In this document: one piece after another, positions 15,072 through 23,134 of the stretch
Layout: each line of letters begins with the position of its first letter
How positions within the stretch are numbered: position 1 is the stretch's first letter
DNA from: Gemmataceae bacterium
Lineage (GTDB): Bacteria > Planctomycetota > Planctomycetia > Gemmatales > Gemmataceae
DNA length: 64,000 bases
NCBI GenBank assembly: GCA_025055795.1
Contig: JANWVV010000012.1
Coordinates: 1-64,000 of the forward strand
Direction: 5' to 3'
Translations under genes and position numbers: made by a program
Notes under the pieces: generated by a model
Databases searched by the model: none
What the model was told of the DNA's origin: nothing
What the model saw: only the letters and a program-made list of their open reading frames with translations

Positions 15072-16064
15072 TTACCAGTCGTTGCCCAGTGGTAGACCAT
15101 CAGCACGATGTCCTAAACGCCAGAAAGTTGTTGTTGAATCACAGCAACTAATGTTGAAAGTGATAAAGCGGACTGAGCCATCACCGAGCAAGGCGTTGAA
15201 GCCACCTGGATGTAAACCACCAAAACGAAAGTTACCGTCTGTACCGTCATCGGGCATAGGTGCCAGATCGGTACGGCGAATGACGTCATGGTCCCAGCCT
15301 GATGAGTACCCTTCGTTATCGTCGCCTCGGAAGCCGCTGATGCCACGGAAAAGTTTCTTATCACCAGCCACCAAGGTTACCGATGTGCCATCAATGAAGT
15401 CCTGAATACGAATAGGCTGGCGACGTCGTGTTCCGGGAATGCTATGGCCTTTGTCATGATTAAAGGTTTGAACGATCGCGCCAAGGTCACTGCTGTTTGG
15501 ACCAATTGATCCGGCGTAGTCGGTTTGTCCATGAGTGCCGCAGAAGGGAAAACCTGTGGTGGGTTCATACCACGATGTGGCCTGTGTCCACGCAGTAGGC
15601 GCACGCCGCGAGGGACAGAAGTAGGTTCGTATAATTGCGGCACGAGCTTGGCTCATCTGACCGCCGATTGTAGGTTGTCCGCCACCGTTGTAAATGTTTT
15701 GTTGCTCGATGAAGGGTAGCAGTTGGAACAACCATCCTGCTCGTTGTTCAGTGACGCCTGCTGGTGGAGCAGCGGCTGCTGACAGATTGGGAGGTACGCC
15801 GACAACTGGGGTACCATATGTCGGTGCCATCGACCAGTGCTGACCGCCAGTGGGTAGGTAGCCGGTAGCGTCGTTGTGGTTGTGCATCGCCAAGCCGATT
15901 TGTTTGAGGTTGTTTTGGCAGCTCATGCGGGCGGCCGCTTCACGCACCTTCTGCACAGCAGGAAGCAGCAATCCAATCAAAATCGCAATAATCGCAATCA
16001 CCACCAACAACTCAATCAGCGTAAAACCACACGTGTTACGGGTACGGGTGTAGGAGCGAGTCAT
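15072..16064 (-). CDS. DUF1559 protein with prepilin-type N-terminus
   Basis: Pseudopilin-like protein of the family that is hugely expanded in planctomycetes. It starts with a short basic leader, then the prepilin peptidase site and helix ([20 protein letters not shown], with Glu at +5), then [20 protein letters not shown]. The C-terminal half is the DUF1559 beta-rich domain ending with an H-X9-DG type signature ([15 protein letters not shown]). Expected to be inserted in the inner membrane and exported; the family's role is unknown. I chose ATG 16064 because GAGAGGTG lies 5 bases upstream. A 136-bp stretch coding for the N-terminus is almost identical in the second DUF1559 gene. Confidence 0.92.
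15895..16030. repeat. 136-bp direct repeat, copy 1 (in DUF1559 gene A)
   Basis: Matches 17793-17928 at 135 of 136 positions; the single visible difference is T at 15972 versus A at 17870. It encodes the prepilin cleavage region, helix and following residues. Flanking DNA of the two genes has diverged. Confidence 0.9.
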
Positions 16065-16429
16065 AACGACACCTCTCAAGGAGAAACGGAAATGAAGAAA
16101 TCAGACGGATCACATGGGTCACTCACGACCATTCTTAATTTATCGTTATCCGTGCTTTCCTGCAAGACGCAAAATCATGAAAAAAAGACTAGTGGCGATG
16201 TGACAAATACTTGCCTTGTGCGAGTTTTTTAACCCAAAGCAATTCTCGGAAGTTTGGGAGTCACTGACGACCTCAATCCAGAGTACGACAGCGAGAGTTT
16301 CGCCAGATAGATACTTTATGAATGCTTTAGGTTGTGCAAGAGTACTACAAAGCTTCTCTAAGAGGGCATGTTTTTTCTACCCCGCAGTGGTGTGCAATCT
16401 TGCCAGGGAGGGCAGCCCCGCTAGATTGA
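16065..16429. other. intergenic region between lipoprotein and DUF1559 gene A
   Basis: 365 bases with no supported gene, lying upstream of the minus-strand DUF1559 gene A. It should hold that gene's promoter, but I cannot point to a convincing -35/-10 pair. No terminator for the preceding lipoprotein gene is obvious. Confidence 0.4.
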
Positions 16430-16978: not shown

Positions 16979-17965
16979 TCAGTTAACGTCTGCCACTTCT
17001 CCCCCTGCCATGGTGGCCATGGCTGCTAGGAGGTTAATGTCAACGCTGTAGCTGACAAAACGAACGGAACCGTCGGCCATCAGGAAATTCAACCCATTGG
17101 TGTGATTGCTCCCAAAGCCGCGTTTGCATGGGTTGTCGCCCCCGTTTCCGGGACTGTTCCAGCAACGGTTGTAACTATTACCCAAGATACGGCTTTCGCT
17201 TGTCACCGACGATTGATTGTACGAGGTGTAACCGTAAGCCCAGAAGGTGGCACGTCGTGGCACATCAATGTTGGTGTACTCACCAACCAAAAGTGTGTTG
17301 GAAGTGCCATCGATAATGCTCGTTATACGTTCGGTGGTTCCCGTTGGGCATTGTCCTGCTACGGTAGCGTTAGGGGTACGAATGACAACATGCAAGACAC
17401 CTTTCCACAAAGGATTAAGTGTGCCTAAGTTGGGTTCGCAGGTATCCCAAAATACACGACCATTGCCCCCGCTACGGCCTGAAACGGCCCGATACGATCC
17501 AAATTGATATTGAACACCACCACCATTACCAGACGCTGGTCGCTCGGTTTGATTGTATAAAGTATCCGATGGACAAGAATAAACTTTAACGAATTGGGTA
17601 CGCAGAAAAGTGTTGTTGGTTGACCAGGTATTTTCGGAAGGCACCCATGTACGGAATAGAGCGTCCTGTTCCAGAAAGGGCAGGATGTCCACCGTCCAAG
17701 TGGTCATAACGTTCTGACCGCAGCAAACGTTGTCCGATGTGTTCCCCGCAGGAAAAGTGTTGTTAACGTCGTGATAATTGTGAAGGGCAATTCCGATTTG
17801 TTTGAGGTTGTTTTGGCAGCTCATGCGGGCGGCCGCTTCACGCACCTTCTGCACAGCAGGAAGCAGCAAACCAATCAAAATCGCAATAATCGCAATCACC
17901 ACCAACAACTCAATCAGCGTAAAACCACGGGCACAGCAGCGATGAATGACGTGAGAGCGAGACAT
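16979..17965 (-). CDS. DUF1559 protein with prepilin-type N-terminus
   Basis: Second DUF1559 pseudopilin-like protein, 328 residues from the ATG at 17965, which is preceded by GGAGGT at 6 bases. It has a basic leader ([13 protein letters not shown]), the [18 protein letters not shown] helix, and a C-terminal [16 protein letters not shown] signature. Gene A has the same plan but differs in most of the DUF1559 domain. The open frame continues upstream to 18079, but the ribosome-binding site and leader make 17965 the start. A lipoprotein gene follows 69 bases downstream. Probably in the inner membrane and exposed to the periplasm. Confidence 0.92.
17793..17928. repeat. 136-bp direct repeat, copy 2 (in DUF1559 gene B)
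   Basis: Partner of 15895-16030, one mismatch. Same orientation, 1898 bases apart. Confidence 0.9.
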
Positions 17966-18183
17966 AAAGTACCTCCGAAAGGCGATACCAAGTGAAAAGA
18001 AGCGTATCAGAAAATGAGCAGTAACGCCGTAAAGACCTTGCTCGTATCTAACAATAACTCGGCCAAACGTACATTGCAATAGGCAAATTTCTTATCTTTC
18101 CACACCACAGATTGGACGACAAACTCGCCCGCCCAGAGTTGATGAAGTGACTATTGGCTATTTCTGCGAATTTTTAATGTGCT

Positions 18184-19194
18184 TCAGTTACAACGGGGCT
18201 TGCGAGCGGTGACTTTAACACTAGCCGCAAAATCATTCAGATTGTAGCACTGCAACAACTGAGCTAAAGCACGATGGACGGGACTAGTTATGTCCCTCGA
18301 GCTTGTGGGGACAGTGGGAACTTCGGCGGATGTGGTATCACAACAGCCAGGGGCATCACCACGATTGTCGTTCTCAGTGAGGCACAAATTGATGACAGGT
18401 GCCACCTCAATCGAGTGATTTGGGTGAGAAGCGGTTTTTTCTACCGACTCCGCAGCGGAGCGTTCGGCCATGGCAGGGGAACAACAAGCGAGTTGGCCCT
18501 CAATGAGGGCATAGGCGTGCAGGTCGGCCCCGCTGTCGGTGATCACCACATCGCAGAAACCAGCGTTTAACAACTGCGACGCATATTGTTCCATGCTAAG
18601 GGCACCGGCAATACAGCCCACTATGGCTGCAATGTGGTTGGCCAATTCTGCAGGCAACGGTTGTTTCAAGGCGATGTCGGAGATGGCTACGCGGCCGCCG
18701 GGCTTGAGCACGCGATACATTTCTCGGAAAACAGCCGCTTTGTCTTCAACAAGGTTGATGACACAGTTCGAGATTAGGCAATCTACCGTGGCATCGGCCA
18801 AGGGCAAAGCGGCGAGGTCGGCCTGATAAAACTCGACATTAGTCTGGCCGGTTTGTACAGCATTGAGGCGGGCTCGCTCGATCATTTCCGGCGTCCGATC
18901 AATGCCAATCGCTTTGCCGGATGGACCTACTCGGCGAGCGGCCAGAAGCACGTCGATTCCTGCACCACAGCCCAAGTCGACAACTACCTCTCCTGGCTGT
19001 AGCCCTGCCATGGCCGTCGGGTTACCACAGCCCAAACCCAGATTGGCTGCTGCGGGCAGTTGCGATAATTCGTCAGCACTGTATCCGAATGCTTCGGCTA
19101 CCGCTTTTACCCCAGGGGTGTCCTGACTGATGTTACTGCGAGCCACGGCAGCATAGTGGGCCTGAATAGTTTCCGTTATGGAAGGACGGGACAT
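18184..19194 (-). CDS. arsM: arsenite S-adenosylmethionine methyltransferase
   Basis: Methylates As(III) to methylated arsenicals using S-adenosylmethionine in the cytoplasm. The SAM motif [20 protein letters not shown] and the ArsM features [28 protein letters not shown] and VGCIAGALS are present. The Cys in these three places (about 56, 143 and 193) correspond to the three arsenic-binding cysteines of the family. The C-terminal part has further Cys pairs (ACCSPA, GCCDTT) and a tail of about 95 residues ending in KPRCN. The ATG at 19194 fits the family start ([13 protein letters not shown]); the frame extends upstream to 19410 without family-like sequence. No arsR, arsB or arsC gene is adjacent. 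Confidence 0.9.
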
Positions 19195-19471
19195 CCTTAT
19201 GCCCCCACTATCTCGTAGATGTTCGGAAGCAATTTCGCTAACAAAAATTACAGCGTTTATTTTATGGACTTGGAGCTTTGTTGAAGCTGTATTGCTCCAG
19301 CAAACACAACTACAGGTAATCTTAAGTCGGAGAGCACTAATTTTGTTGTATTTTGCCGGAATCTGGTCGCTAGTATGAAAGTCACTCAGGATGCCTGCAG
19401 CCGAGAGCAATTAGAGCTTGGCGACTAATGCCAGTCAACAAGGCTTCTGCGGAGAATTTGCGTGTGAGTTG

Positions 19472-22400
19472 TCAGAAGGCCTGCTGCACGCCGAACCAGA
19501 TTTGCCAAGGGGTGGCGGCATTGAGGGTTTTGGCTACGTCCAGACGCAACACCGCGCGTTCGATGAAGCTGAAAACGGCTACGTCCAGACGTAAGCCGAC
19601 TCCCAAAGCGTGAGCGACGTCGCCGATGCGTCGACCATTAGCATAAATAGCCCCGACGTCATAGAAAGTAGCCAGCCAGAGGTTACGACCGCCGAAAAGA
19701 TGATCCAGGATGTCCCATTCCACTTCGCGACATAGAGGCCAGCGTAATTCGAGGTTGGCCACCCACAGGGCATTGCCCTGACGTTCGGCTAGATCGAAGC
19801 CTCGGAACAGTGTGCCGCCCCCTAAAGCGAAAAAGCGACCATCGTCGGGTAAGGCCCCTTGCAGGACCACACGTGCCGCCAGACGTGTCTGGCCGAGCAG
19901 TCCTAGGCGTTGGCTGCCCAGAGGGCGCACGGCCGCCAGTTCCAGGCGTCCTTGGGCCATGCCTTGCCAGTTCTGAACGTCGGCCATGCCACCCCCTGCT
20001 ACCACATCGATCCAGAAACCAGTTTCGGGATCCCAATAGGGGGTATACATGTTCCAGCGATAATGGTAACCGCCCATGAGCAGATGGTTCCAACGGATAC
20101 CGGCACCAGAACGAGAAAAGGGCAGGAAATTGTCCTGATACGTCGCAAATACTTCCTGGTACATCGTGGGGGGTAGATACAGGCTGGAGGTAGGAAGTAG
20201 CACCTGCCGTCCGTAGAGTACTGCTCGTTGGGGGCCGCCGGCGCCGGGGAGACGGTCCCACGGGGTGACAACGCGATCCCGCAGTCGCCCCCACGGCCCA
20301 GCCACGCGCCACTCCCAATTGCCCCCCGCCTCCCAATGGTCCCCCAGCACGACCGCGTCCGCCCCGAAAACCAGATCCTGGAAGTCACTACGATAGGCCA
20401 GATAGGTTCCCGCTTGATAACGTTGCGGACGATTCACACCAGCCCGCAATCCGGCCATGGTGGTTCGGGTATACCACGGGTCGTTGTACGACGGCCCCCA
20501 CACCCATGGACCCACGATGACGTTGAGACGGTCAAAATCAAGGGTAAGATTAGTTTCATCCAGCATGGTGTACAAAGGAGTACTGCGAATCCGCGGCTTG
20601 GCACGCCACACATTATTGCCAGGATCGGCGTCGAGAAGGACACGATCAGGATCGATCGTAATCTGCAAGGGGGGAGGTGTCGACAGATCCACCTGCCATC
20701 GCTTGTCCCCCAAGTAGGTAACAGCCGCACCGCTTTCAGGCCAATAGACGGGTTCCGTGGTAAAACCGACAGGAATACGGTGGCGGACACCGTCTTGCAG
20801 CGTGATCTCCAGGATGGTCGGTTCCGTCAGTTCGCGGCATTGCCGGACAACAACTCGCAAGGGTTGCGGGCCGAGCAGCCGTGGACGGAAGATGCGGGGG
20901 AGCTCTGGACTAAACCCATCATACACCGCTTCAATTTCCCAGTCAGTGAGGTCCCTGCCATAAACCCAGCGTCGGAAAAACTCGCCCCAATCCCGACCAG
21001 TATATTGCTCCAACTCCTGACGCAACTCTTTAGCTTGCAGAATTCGCCACCGGTAGCGGGTCATCAAGTGACGGATAAAGTCCAAAAAGGCGGCCTCTCC
21101 CAGCTGAGCTTCGATCATACTGAAGACTTTCGAGCCCCGGTCGTAGGCACCGGTGAAAAGCCCAAAGAGATTTCCATATGCAGGCAGGTTTTGGGCAGCG
21201 GGATGCATTTCGTTATTGCGGATTGAGTAATACACCCCGCTATAACGATAGTTTTCCCGGTAGATATTGGGCAACCAGCGAAACCCGGGGGGCCACTCCA
21301 GCATGGGATTGTTGCGACCGTGCTTCAAGTCCAGCAGTCGATGGGTGAAATGGACGGCCGCCCCTTCATCAATAAATGGCTCGGCGTAGCCATTGGTGCC
21401 CACTAGATTGTACCACCACTGATGGCAGGTCTCGTGTGACACCAGGTACTCGACATAGCCGCGGGCTAGATGAGGCATACCGAAGACCCGCTCATCAATC
21501 ATGATCAGTCCAGCACATTCATTTCCGTTCCAGCCGAAGTAGGATTCCACAATGGTGAATTGGTCATAGGGATAGTCGCCGAACCAGCGCGAGAAAGCGG
21601 GGATTGCCTCAGCAGTGATACGCAGGATTTCACGGGCAAAGAATTCGTGTTCGGGGAAGGCATAACACCGCAGGCGCACTGCACGACCAGAGGGCAGGGT
21701 AGTTGTCGCAGTAAATGTCTGGTAGCGGCGGGAGCACAAAATGGCAAAATCCCGACCTACAAACGGTGCACAATGGCAACGCTGTCGCCCATCGGGCAGG
21801 ATTTCCTGCCGCTGGATAGTGGCGGGCACGACCAGGACCTCGCCGGCAGGAAGGGTAATCGTAGCCTCGAAAATTCCCGCTTCGTTAAACCACGGCTGAT
21901 GCCAGGGTACAAACGGGACCGGCTTCCAGCCTTCAGCATCACAATAGGCCAATAGGGGCAGAGCGTTAGTCAGATAGGTGACACCTTTCCAGTAACCTAG
22001 TCGTCCTTGGATGTTGGGCAGGTAGTAAGTGCACCGTAACTCCAACTGGACGACTTCTCCCGGGTTCAATGGGCGAGGAAGGTACACGCGTAGGGCCGTT
22101 GTGTTGTCGGCATCGAAGCGGAAGGCAACAGCCTGGTCATATGACTGCTGGCCCAATTGACAAAGGCGGACCGATTCCACCACACCAAAACGGCCACAGC
22201 GATCAATCCCCAGAGACGGCTGAAGCCGGAGCAGTTCGAGAGTTTTGGCCAGGTGTATGTAGTCGCCTTGCGGAACGCGATAATGTGGATAAAAACTGAA
22301 GACGCACTGATCTAACGGCAGCGGTGTGGGGTTTCTCCAGGTCACTTGTAGCTTCAATTGGGCGGTGTGCTGAGCAGTGTCGAGGGTTAAATCCAAGTGA

Positions 22401-22624
22401 TAACGCGGCAGGTGAGTTGGAAATTCCTCGGAGTGGGATGAAGGGCTCGGCTCATCCGACGAAGGCCTGGAAGACCGCATTTTACCTTTCAGTTGGCCCG
22501 GTGCTGTTAGGAAAAGACATGCAACGAGTATAACGCAAGCAATAGCCGCGATGCGGCGATTGTAGCGAAGTCTGCAGCCACGCGACGAGCAAGACGCAAC
22601 CGGAGTTGTTACGTGCCGAAGCAT
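19472..22624 (-). CDS. M1-like zinc peptidase fused to an Omp85-like outer-membrane barrel
   Basis: 1050 residues. A signal peptide (IAAIACVILVACLFLTAPG) is followed by an M1-type N-terminal beta domain (YHLDLTLDTAQHTAQLKLQV) and a gluzincin domain with zinc motif HETCH at 397-401 and the third ligand Glu 420 (HExxH-x18-E). The GAMEN exopeptidase loop is changed to NGNECAG. From about residue 700 the sequence becomes alternating beta strands and ends in RLDVAKTLNAATPWQIWFGVQQAF-like barrel strands with a terminal Phe, the outer-membrane insertion signal. GGGTLFRGF at about 935-943 matches the conserved RGF loop of Omp85/surface-antigen barrels. Predicted: a peptidase on the periplasmic side or surface, tethered by its own barrel. 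Substrate unknown. It lies behind a Trm112-like gene on the same strand. Confidence 0.82.
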   Translation of the reverse strand: MLRHVTTPVASCSSRGCRLRYNRRIAAIACVILVACLFLTAPGQLKGKMRSSRPSSDEPSPSSHSEEFPTHLPRYHLDLTLDTAQHTAQLKLQVTWRNPTPLPLDQCVFSFYPHYRVPQGDYIHLAKTLELLRLQPSLGIDRCGRFGVVESVRLCQLGQQSYDQAVAFRFDADNTTALRVYLPRPLNPGEVVQLELRCTYYLPNIQGRLGYWKGVTYLTNALPLLAYCDAEGWKPVPFVPWHQPWFNEAGIFEATITLPAGEVLVVPATIQRQEILPDGRQRCHCAPFVGRDFAILCSRRYQTFTATTTLPSGRAVRLRCYAFPEHEFFAREILRITAEAIPAFSRWFGDYPYDQFTIVESYFGWNGNECAGLIMIDERVFGMPHLARGYVEYLVSHETCHQWWYNLVGTNGYAEPFIDEGAAVHFTHRLLDLKHGRNNPMLEWPPGFRWLPNIYRENYRYSGVYYSIRNNEMHPAAQNLPAYGNLFGLFTGAYDRGSKVFSMIEAQLGEAAFLDFIRHLMTRYRWRILQAKELRQELEQYTGRDWGEFFRRWVYGRDLTDWEIEAVYDGFSPELPRIFRPRLLGPQPLRVVVRQCRELTEPTILEITLQDGVRHRIPVGFTTEPVYWPESGAAVTYLGDKRWQVDLSTPPPLQITIDPDRVLLDADPGNNVWRAKPRIRSTPLYTMLDETNLTLDFDRLNVIVGPWVWGPSYNDPWYTRTTMAGLRAGVNRPQRYQAGTYLAYRSDFQDLVFGADAVVLGDHWEAGGNWEWRVAGPWGRLRDRVVTPWDRLPGAGGPQRAVLYGRQVLLPTSSLYLPPTMYQEVFATYQDNFLPFSRSGAGIRWNHLLMGGYHYRWNMYTPYWDPETGFWIDVVAGGGMADVQNWQGMAQGRLELAAVRPLGSQRLGLLGQTRLAARVVLQGALPDDGRFFALGGGTLFRGFDLAERQGNALWVANLELRWPLCREVEWDILDHLFGGRNLWLATFYDVGAIYANGRRIGDVAHALGVGLRLDVAVFSFIERAVLRLDVAKTLNAATPWQIWFGVQQAF

Positions 22625-22828: not shown

Positions 22829-23071
22829 CTACCAGCGCGGGTTGGTGTCGGAGAGAGCTGGGGGTGAGGAGTGTCGTGCTGCTAGTTGAGCGTGGTGACG
22901 GATGCCCACGGGCAGGATCGCGTCCTGAGGAACGAGTACGGGGATGCCATTGCGGATGCGGAATCGGGCCGAGCACGCCGGGCATTGCAAAGCATCATCG
23001 CTACGGAGCAGGGGGGTGCGACGATGCGGATCGAAGGGGCAACGGAGATACGGTAGTAGCTGGTCTAGCAT
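22829..23071 (-). CDS. Trm112-like (UPF0434 type) small zinc protein
   Basis: 80 residues from the ATG at 23071 (MLDQLLPYLRCPFDPHRRTPL). It has two Cys sites, LRCPFD and LQCPACSARF, then RIRNGIPVLVPQDA, the usual plan of the Trm112/UPF0434 family, in which zinc-binding small proteins activate methyltransferases or have unknown roles. The second site is a full CPAC pair, while the first has only one Cys, so zinc binding may be incomplete. The open frame upstream to 23203 runs through the 16S terminator and is not coding. The gene follows the 16S rRNA gene and precedes the M1/barrel gene on the same strand. Confidence 0.75.
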   Translation of the reverse strand: MLDQLLPYLRCPFDPHRRTPLLRSDDALQCPACSARFRIRNGIPVLVPQDAILPVGIRHHAQLAARHSSPPALSDTNPRW

Positions 23072-23103
23072 AGGCGATGAAGACGTTAGGCAGAAGCAAA
23101 AGT

Positions 23104-23134
23104 AAAAAACCCCCGAAGTGGTGGCTTCGGGGGG
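23104..23134 (-). terminator. rho-independent terminator of the 16S rRNA gene
   Basis: On the minus strand CCCCCGAAG, loop CCACCA, CTTCGGGGG and six T: a perfect 9-bp stem with a strong U-tract, about 75 bases after the 16S 3' end. It shows that transcription of the rRNA stops here instead of running into a 23S gene. Confidence 0.9.

Follow-up and report, generated by a model that had tools for sequence, protein, structure and literature searches.

Can one bacterial gene encode both a zinc peptidase and an outer-membrane barrel of the Omp85 type, and if it does, what would the product do in the cell envelope? The question arises from a single gene in the window, by which we mean the whole stretch of 64,000 nucleotides from a Gemmataceae bacterium that was analysed here. 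Comparison of sequences and computed models indicate that this planctomycete protein is an M1 (aminopeptidase N family) zinc peptidase joined to a predicted 16-stranded outer-membrane barrel of the BamA/TamA type. Its anatomy, that is, the fusion itself, the M1 site, the 16 strands, the Omp85 motifs, the absence of POTRA domains and the conservation of these features, was derived by sequence comparison or from computed models and can be regarded as nearly certain. How the protein is placed in the envelope and what it does there are questions for which we offer answers of lower and graded confidence.

The reading frame and its peptidase part

The gene occupies positions 19472 to 22624 as a single open frame on the minus strand, to which the coordinates of all features of the protein given below refer, with the ATG at 22624, the stop at 19472 and 1050 amino acids plus the stop encoded in between; the plus strand of the same interval contains 23 stops. 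The preliminary description of this locus had already proposed one 1050-residue frame joining an M1 peptidase to a barrel, without naming the strand, and had placed HETCH at residues 397-401, a glutamate at 420, GGGTLFRGF at 935-943 and a C-terminal Phe at 1050; both the frame and these positions proved to be correct. Full-length homologues without inner stops, 32-78% identical to the window protein, are present in dozens of genomes, complete chromosomes included, which rules out a chance or frameshift fusion. The short frames seen in G266, G275, G281, G025 and G055 are due to contig ends, and that in G246 is an interrupted copy, with a match that is continuous in one tblastn piece. Distances between homologues calculated for the M1 part and for the barrel correlate with r=0.91 (73 homologues), as would be expected if both had travelled together since one fusion, although much of this correlation is explicable by shared descent alone. 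An artefact, whether from two genes taken for one or from a fortuitous resemblance, is hardly conceivable in view of single frames, about 1000 residues long, from dozens of genomes and of the structure and motif tests described below, the only point in its favour being a borderline score with the Omp85 profile.

Residues 1-65 (22430..22624) form an N-terminal signal region with a low-complexity linker, in which a hydrophobic stretch at 24-45 includes a helix predicted by AlphaFold2 at 24-35, pLDDT being below 50 for the whole of 1-65. The signal peptide of the window protein is not clear-cut, as a clean AxA site is absent near the hydrophobic stretch. Among 83 homologues, AxA is found just ahead of the mature domain in 40 and a lipobox-like motif in one.

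Judged from its sequence, the following part of the protein (residues 72-560) is an M1 metallopeptidase with a catalytic site that looks intact. It consists of an N-terminal beta domain (residues 72-319; 21668..22411), recognised by its conservation and by VIA-align matches to M1 peptidases that begin at residue 71, and of the catalytic domain (residues 320-560; 20945..21667), which contains a Pfam match to Peptidase_M1 (PF01433) at 336-553 (E=4.9e-15, 56.2 bits, cut-off 27.7). When a sequence profile was compared with solved structures, the top matches were M1 aminopeptidases (glutamyl aminopeptidase, ERAP2 and the puromycin-sensitive enzyme) with E-values down to 1e-15, and the model was aligned by VIA-align with ERAP1 (6ryf_A; Z 36.0, 494 residues aligned, rmsd 3.4) and with a two-domain M1 peptidase of Deinococcus (6iff_A; Z 32.2, 391 residues aligned, rmsd 3.2). 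Conservation was counted in 73 non-redundant full-length homologues from the identity range given above. In the zinc and catalytic motif HETCH (397-401; 21422..21436), H397 and E398 are present in 72 and H401 in all 73 of them; the third zinc ligand Glu420 (21365..21367), which completes the HExxH-18-E arrangement, and the M1 catalytic tyrosine Tyr494 within AYDRG (21143..21145) are both kept throughout. WNGNE (365-369; 21518..21532) is a variant of the exopeptidase motif GxMEN, and its E369, found in 71 of the 73, is aligned to the Glu of GAMEN in a phmmer alignment with PDB sequences. The invariant residues W241, Q243 and P244 occupy the place of the usual M1 PC.DEP region. Overall, conservation within the protein is highest in the catalytic domain (entropy 1.43 vs 1.79 for the barrel).

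Since the zinc site is intact and the N-terminus-binding glutamate E369 is conserved, the enzyme is most likely of the aminopeptidase type; M1 enzymes are mostly exopeptidases. With ERAP1, tricorn factor F3, E. coli PepN and the Deinococcus enzymes (6a8z, 6iff) it shares the order of an N-terminal beta domain followed by a thermolysin-like domain, HExxH-18-E and the tyrosine, with structural Z-scores of 32-36, but it differs from them by having WNGNE instead of GxMEN and an outer-membrane barrel as its C-terminal part.

In four genomes of one genus (G017, G262, G263 and G264) two full-length copies of the gene are found, one with the active site (L188-L191) and a second one (L185, L186, L184 and L187, respectively) in which HETCH is changed to QATCH in all four cases. 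The QATCH copy has thereby lost the first zinc ligand and the catalytic Glu, while the third zinc ligand, the tyrosine and the NE of WNGNE (here WNSNE) are kept. Between species, dN of the QATCH copies amounts to about a tenth of dS or less, also in the catalytic region, and these substitution rates indicate that a full-length protein without a peptidase site is under purifying selection. Peptidase activity is thus not the only selected property, and some independent role should fall to the barrel, or else to the M1 fold acting as a partner or a binding module.

The barrel and the domain that links it

AlphaFold2 predicted 16 strands within residues 701-1048 (19481..20524) when the full chain was modelled from a 27-row alignment (pLDDT 84.8, pTM 0.83), and again 16 strands when the barrel alone was modelled from a different, 32-row alignment (pTM 0.83). 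The barrel was folded and searched alone because the Foldseek matches listed for the whole model were M1 structures only. For the barrel-alone model, all 50 VIA-align matches listed were Omp85 barrels (TamA, BamA, Sam50 and FhaC), with which Foldseek agrees; TamA (4n74) was aligned over 271 residues with Z 22.6 and rmsd 3.4. Closure of the predicted barrel was judged from the strand count and the structural alignment. The Omp85-like barrel of the preliminary description is thus supported, and neither an open barrel nor a soluble beta domain as best match, the two outcomes named there as speaking against it, was seen: both models have 16 strands, and the structural matches listed all belong to Omp85. 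The match to the Omp85 profile PF01103 (residues 892-1016; cut-off 24) is borderline, with 21.2 bits (E=2.3e-4) for the whole protein, 24.1 bits (E=3e-5) for the barrel alone and 24.8 bits in the genome scan, and 18 of 32 relatives are matched at E<=0.1, the best of them at 8.1e-12.

Three motifs which we take to be hallmarks of Omp85 proteins, namely RGF or RGY in loop 6, FxDxG in strand 13 and GxGxR in strand 14, are all present in the model at these places. RGF (941-943; 19796..19804) is located by AlphaFold2 in loop 6, which connects strands 11 and 12, R941 being found in 73 and G942 in 61 of the 73 homologues; FYDVG (987-991; 19652..19666) in strand 13 has F987, D989 and G991 conserved in all, and GVGLR (1008-1012; 19589..19603) in strand 14 has G1008 in all and G1010 and R1012 in 70. 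The last residue, Phe1050 (19475..19477), is as in the outer-membrane beta-signal and is Phe in every homologue. Because of the 16 strands, the structural matches to Omp85 barrels, the three motifs in the right elements and the terminal Phe in all 73, we conclude that the predicted barrel is of Omp85 descent. It shares with TamA, BamA, Sam50 and FhaC the fold, the strand number and these motifs, but those proteins carry POTRA domains and no enzyme, and their sequence identity to it in structural alignments is only about 12-18%.

The most conserved turn of the barrel is periplasmic turn 4 with PYWDPE (862-867; 20024..20041; entropy 0.91 for 859-867), which is aligned to NPTSG of Fusobacterium BamA. 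Periplasmic turns T4 and T7 are conserved and the extracellular loops L4, L5, L7 and L8 are short or variable, as if the protein made its contacts on the inner side. Between peptidase and barrel the secondary structure predicted by AlphaFold2 contains an all-beta domain of about 120 residues (562-681; 20582..20941) that is not a POTRA domain: no POTRA match was obtained with Pfam at E<=5 in the window protein, while the BamA of the same genome yields five POTRA stretches. According to the strict definition, Omp85 proteins have a 16-strand barrel and at least one POTRA domain (PMC11116518); lacking the latter, the window protein is not a canonical Omp85 protein. A POTRA-less group, 'noNterm', was listed in the 2014 survey of the superfamily (PMC4104836).

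Position in the envelope and candidate roles

The best explanation for these features, which we consider probable, is an outer-membrane-anchored metallopeptidase whose M1 domain lies in the periplasm and trims peptides. The fusion protein would be exported by Sec, and the ordinary BamA of the genome would presumably insert the C-terminal barrel into the outer membrane, while the M1 domain would remain beneath the membrane on the periplasmic side, connected to the beginning of strand 1 through the all-beta domain instead of POTRA domains. As the number of strands is even, both ends of the barrel should be on the periplasmic side, and this, the N-terminal position of the M1 domain and the precedent of PlpD, long the prototype of 'type Vd secretion' until its enzyme domain was demonstrated to lie in the periplasm (PMC11116518), place the M1 domain there as well. 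We therefore hold export and the periplasmic side of the M1 domain to be quite likely. Once there, it might act as an aminopeptidase that shortens peptides close to the outer membrane; the most plausible of these are breakdown products of proteins that enter the large planctomycete periplasm or are turned over within it. Uptake of GFP and dextran into the periplasm is known from Gemmata (PMC5394234), so that a periplasmic peptidase could trim the products of imported protein. Catalytic activity, substrates and role are proposed more tentatively, as plausible rather than probable.

The main rival is a quality-control protease of outer-membrane assembly, in which the barrel would lie near BAM or mimic it and the M1 part would remove stalled or damaged outer-membrane proteins in the manner of BepA. 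The Omp85 barrel retains its hallmark motifs, and a gene present almost universally and in single copy in the order would suit a housekeeping role, but the predominance of exopeptidases among M1 enzymes together with the conserved E369, the lack of POTRA domains to hold substrates and the lack of a conserved neighbour from the assembly machinery make this reading somewhat unlikely. Its precedent, BepA, is a periplasmic metallopeptidase that acts on LptD at BAM in E. coli (PMC8423444) and is thus found at the outer membrane beside an Omp85 barrel, as proposed here for the M1 fusion, but it belongs to another peptidase family (M48), is soluble and is not fused. It is likewise unlikely, if conceivable, that the Omp85 barrel has remained active as a machine for assembly or conduction, with an M1 domain acting on whatever goes through it or alongside it; this would be a POTRA-free coupling of outer-membrane assembly or peptide traffic to proteolysis, in which the dead paralogue of one genus would pair with the active one or serve as a peptidase-free version.

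More doubtful is a main function in the barrel, as a pore, an assembly aid or a scaffold for lipids or proteins, with an M1 fold that is mainly regulatory or substrate-binding and whose catalysis, though retained in most lineages, is dispensable. The full-length QATCH paralogue with its low dN/dS would fit such a protein; however, the four genomes concerned retain an active-site copy, the full site is kept in 72 of the 73 non-redundant homologues, and the catalytic domain is better conserved than the barrel. Finally, export of the M1 domain by its own barrel to the cell surface or the medium, similar to type Vd autotransport, would recall PlpD, which was first described as secreting its enzyme domain (PMC4104836), but the 2024 data on PlpD (PMC11116518), the absence of POTRA domains, the need to unfold an enzyme of about 600 residues for passage and the periplasmic starting point of an N-terminal passenger of an even-stranded barrel render it very improbable. 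Of the self-anchored or self-exporting peptidase envisaged in the preliminary description, the self-anchored form is thus supported, while the self-exporting form is at odds with PlpD, with the missing POTRA domains and with a strand number that leaves both termini periplasmic.

The patatin-Omp85 proteins, put forward in the preliminary description as a precedent for enzyme-barrel fusions, are indeed known fusions with, in PlpD, a periplasmic enzyme domain (PMC11116518). PlpD of Pseudomonas, which is a dimer, and FplA of Fusobacterium have an N-terminal enzyme and a C-terminal 16-strand Omp85 barrel in common with the M1 fusion, which would also share the periplasmic side of the enzyme shown for PlpD. 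They differ in that a patatin phospholipase is followed by POTRA, whereas in the window protein an M1 metallopeptidase is followed by the all-beta domain, and Pfam found neither patatin nor POTRA there. The window protein is not a PlpD, but by analogy it may work in a similar way. Another metal-dependent enzyme domain found N-terminal to Omp85 barrels is PF00149, by its Pfam name Metallophos, which we take to be a phosphoesterase and which is unrelated to M1. This domain is the basis of the 'Metallo' or 'Omp85-metalloprotease' subfamily in the 2014 survey by Heinz and Lithgow, where it is called a metalloprotease (PMC4104836); despite the similar layout, that subfamily is probably a phosphoesterase fusion.

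The open-access papers that could be searched yielded no earlier account of an M1 peptidase fused to an Omp85 barrel, which is weak evidence of absence. The protein adds a peptidase, and one without POTRA domains, to the small set of enzymes fused to Omp85 barrels, and the arrangement is nearly universal in an order whose periplasm is unusual, being enlarged and able to take up whole macromolecules. The gene, well defined and mostly present as a single copy, thereby offers a way of asking where Gemmata-like cells digest the protein they import, and the naturally dead copy offers a handle for separating the job of the barrel from that of the peptidase.

Occurrence and genomic neighbourhood

A survey for the same architecture in other planctomycetes, as suggested in the preliminary description, showed that it is widespread in related members of the phylum. 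With a profile of the barrel, the protein was detected in 68 of the 73 genomes that represent the window's order at 90% completeness; class-wide, it was detected in 73 of 198 genomes, comprising nearly all of this order and a scattered remainder, with frequent occurrence in family f3, two genomes of f5 and a few of f4. Nearly every match lies within a frame of about 980 residues or more, and no clear stand-alone barrel gene was seen among the class genomes scanned with the profile. One locus (L112; G013:C254:2736-3188), on a contig of 5.2 kb, encodes no more of the barrel than its final 130 or so residues. The gene is complete in sister genomes, and this locus is either a remnant or an assembly fault.

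In a scan of a collection of 84,980 species, made with close motifs that distant fusions would escape, the loci were planctomycete by title except for untyped bacteria and one metagenome-assembled genome labelled Bacteroidales, a label that is probably wrong, its contig of 19,563 bases having the same length as that of a genome of the window's family (G020). Among the named carriers are Zavarzinella formosa, Limnoglobus roseus, Singulisphaera acidiphila and Aquisphaera insulae. Outside the class no fusion was seen, the listed matches from other classes ending before the barrel (at profile position 594 of 980 at most), and three of the longest M1 frames from there (G106, G130 and G160) end soon after a segment resembling M1 domain III, with no barrel in the sequence fetched. 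Two of these M1 relatives (L120 and L122, in G106 and G130) have frames of about 1170 residues that end soon after the domain-III-like segment (VDP...NNN) and an N-terminus that looks membrane-embedded; they are perhaps an inner-membrane version of the same enzyme. Among plasmid records, 14 contain M1 parts only and none covers the barrel, and PADLOC gave no match.

Besides the fusion, no M1 gene was found in its genome, and the one further Omp85 gene there encodes an ordinary BamA with five POTRA stretches and the Omp85 barrel. Across the homologue loci the neighbourhood gives no hint of a role: no operon emerged, and nothing is conserved apart from an upstream Trm112-like gene that a subset of Gemmataceae share. 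In the window, this small protein (PF03966, E=5.1e-5) is encoded at 22829-23128 on the minus strand, about 200 bases upstream of the fusion and on the same strand, and a similar upstream gene is present in several other Gemmataceae loci. Directly downstream, at 18184-19200 on the minus strand, lies a methyltransferase gene (PF13847, E=1.1e-35), whose product has cysteine pairs towards its C-terminus that recall arsenite methyltransferases. Two further genes on the minus strand (15072-16079 and 16979-18079) encode proteins with a pseudopilin-like N-terminus common in planctomycetes, each of them followed by a small lipoprotein-like gene.
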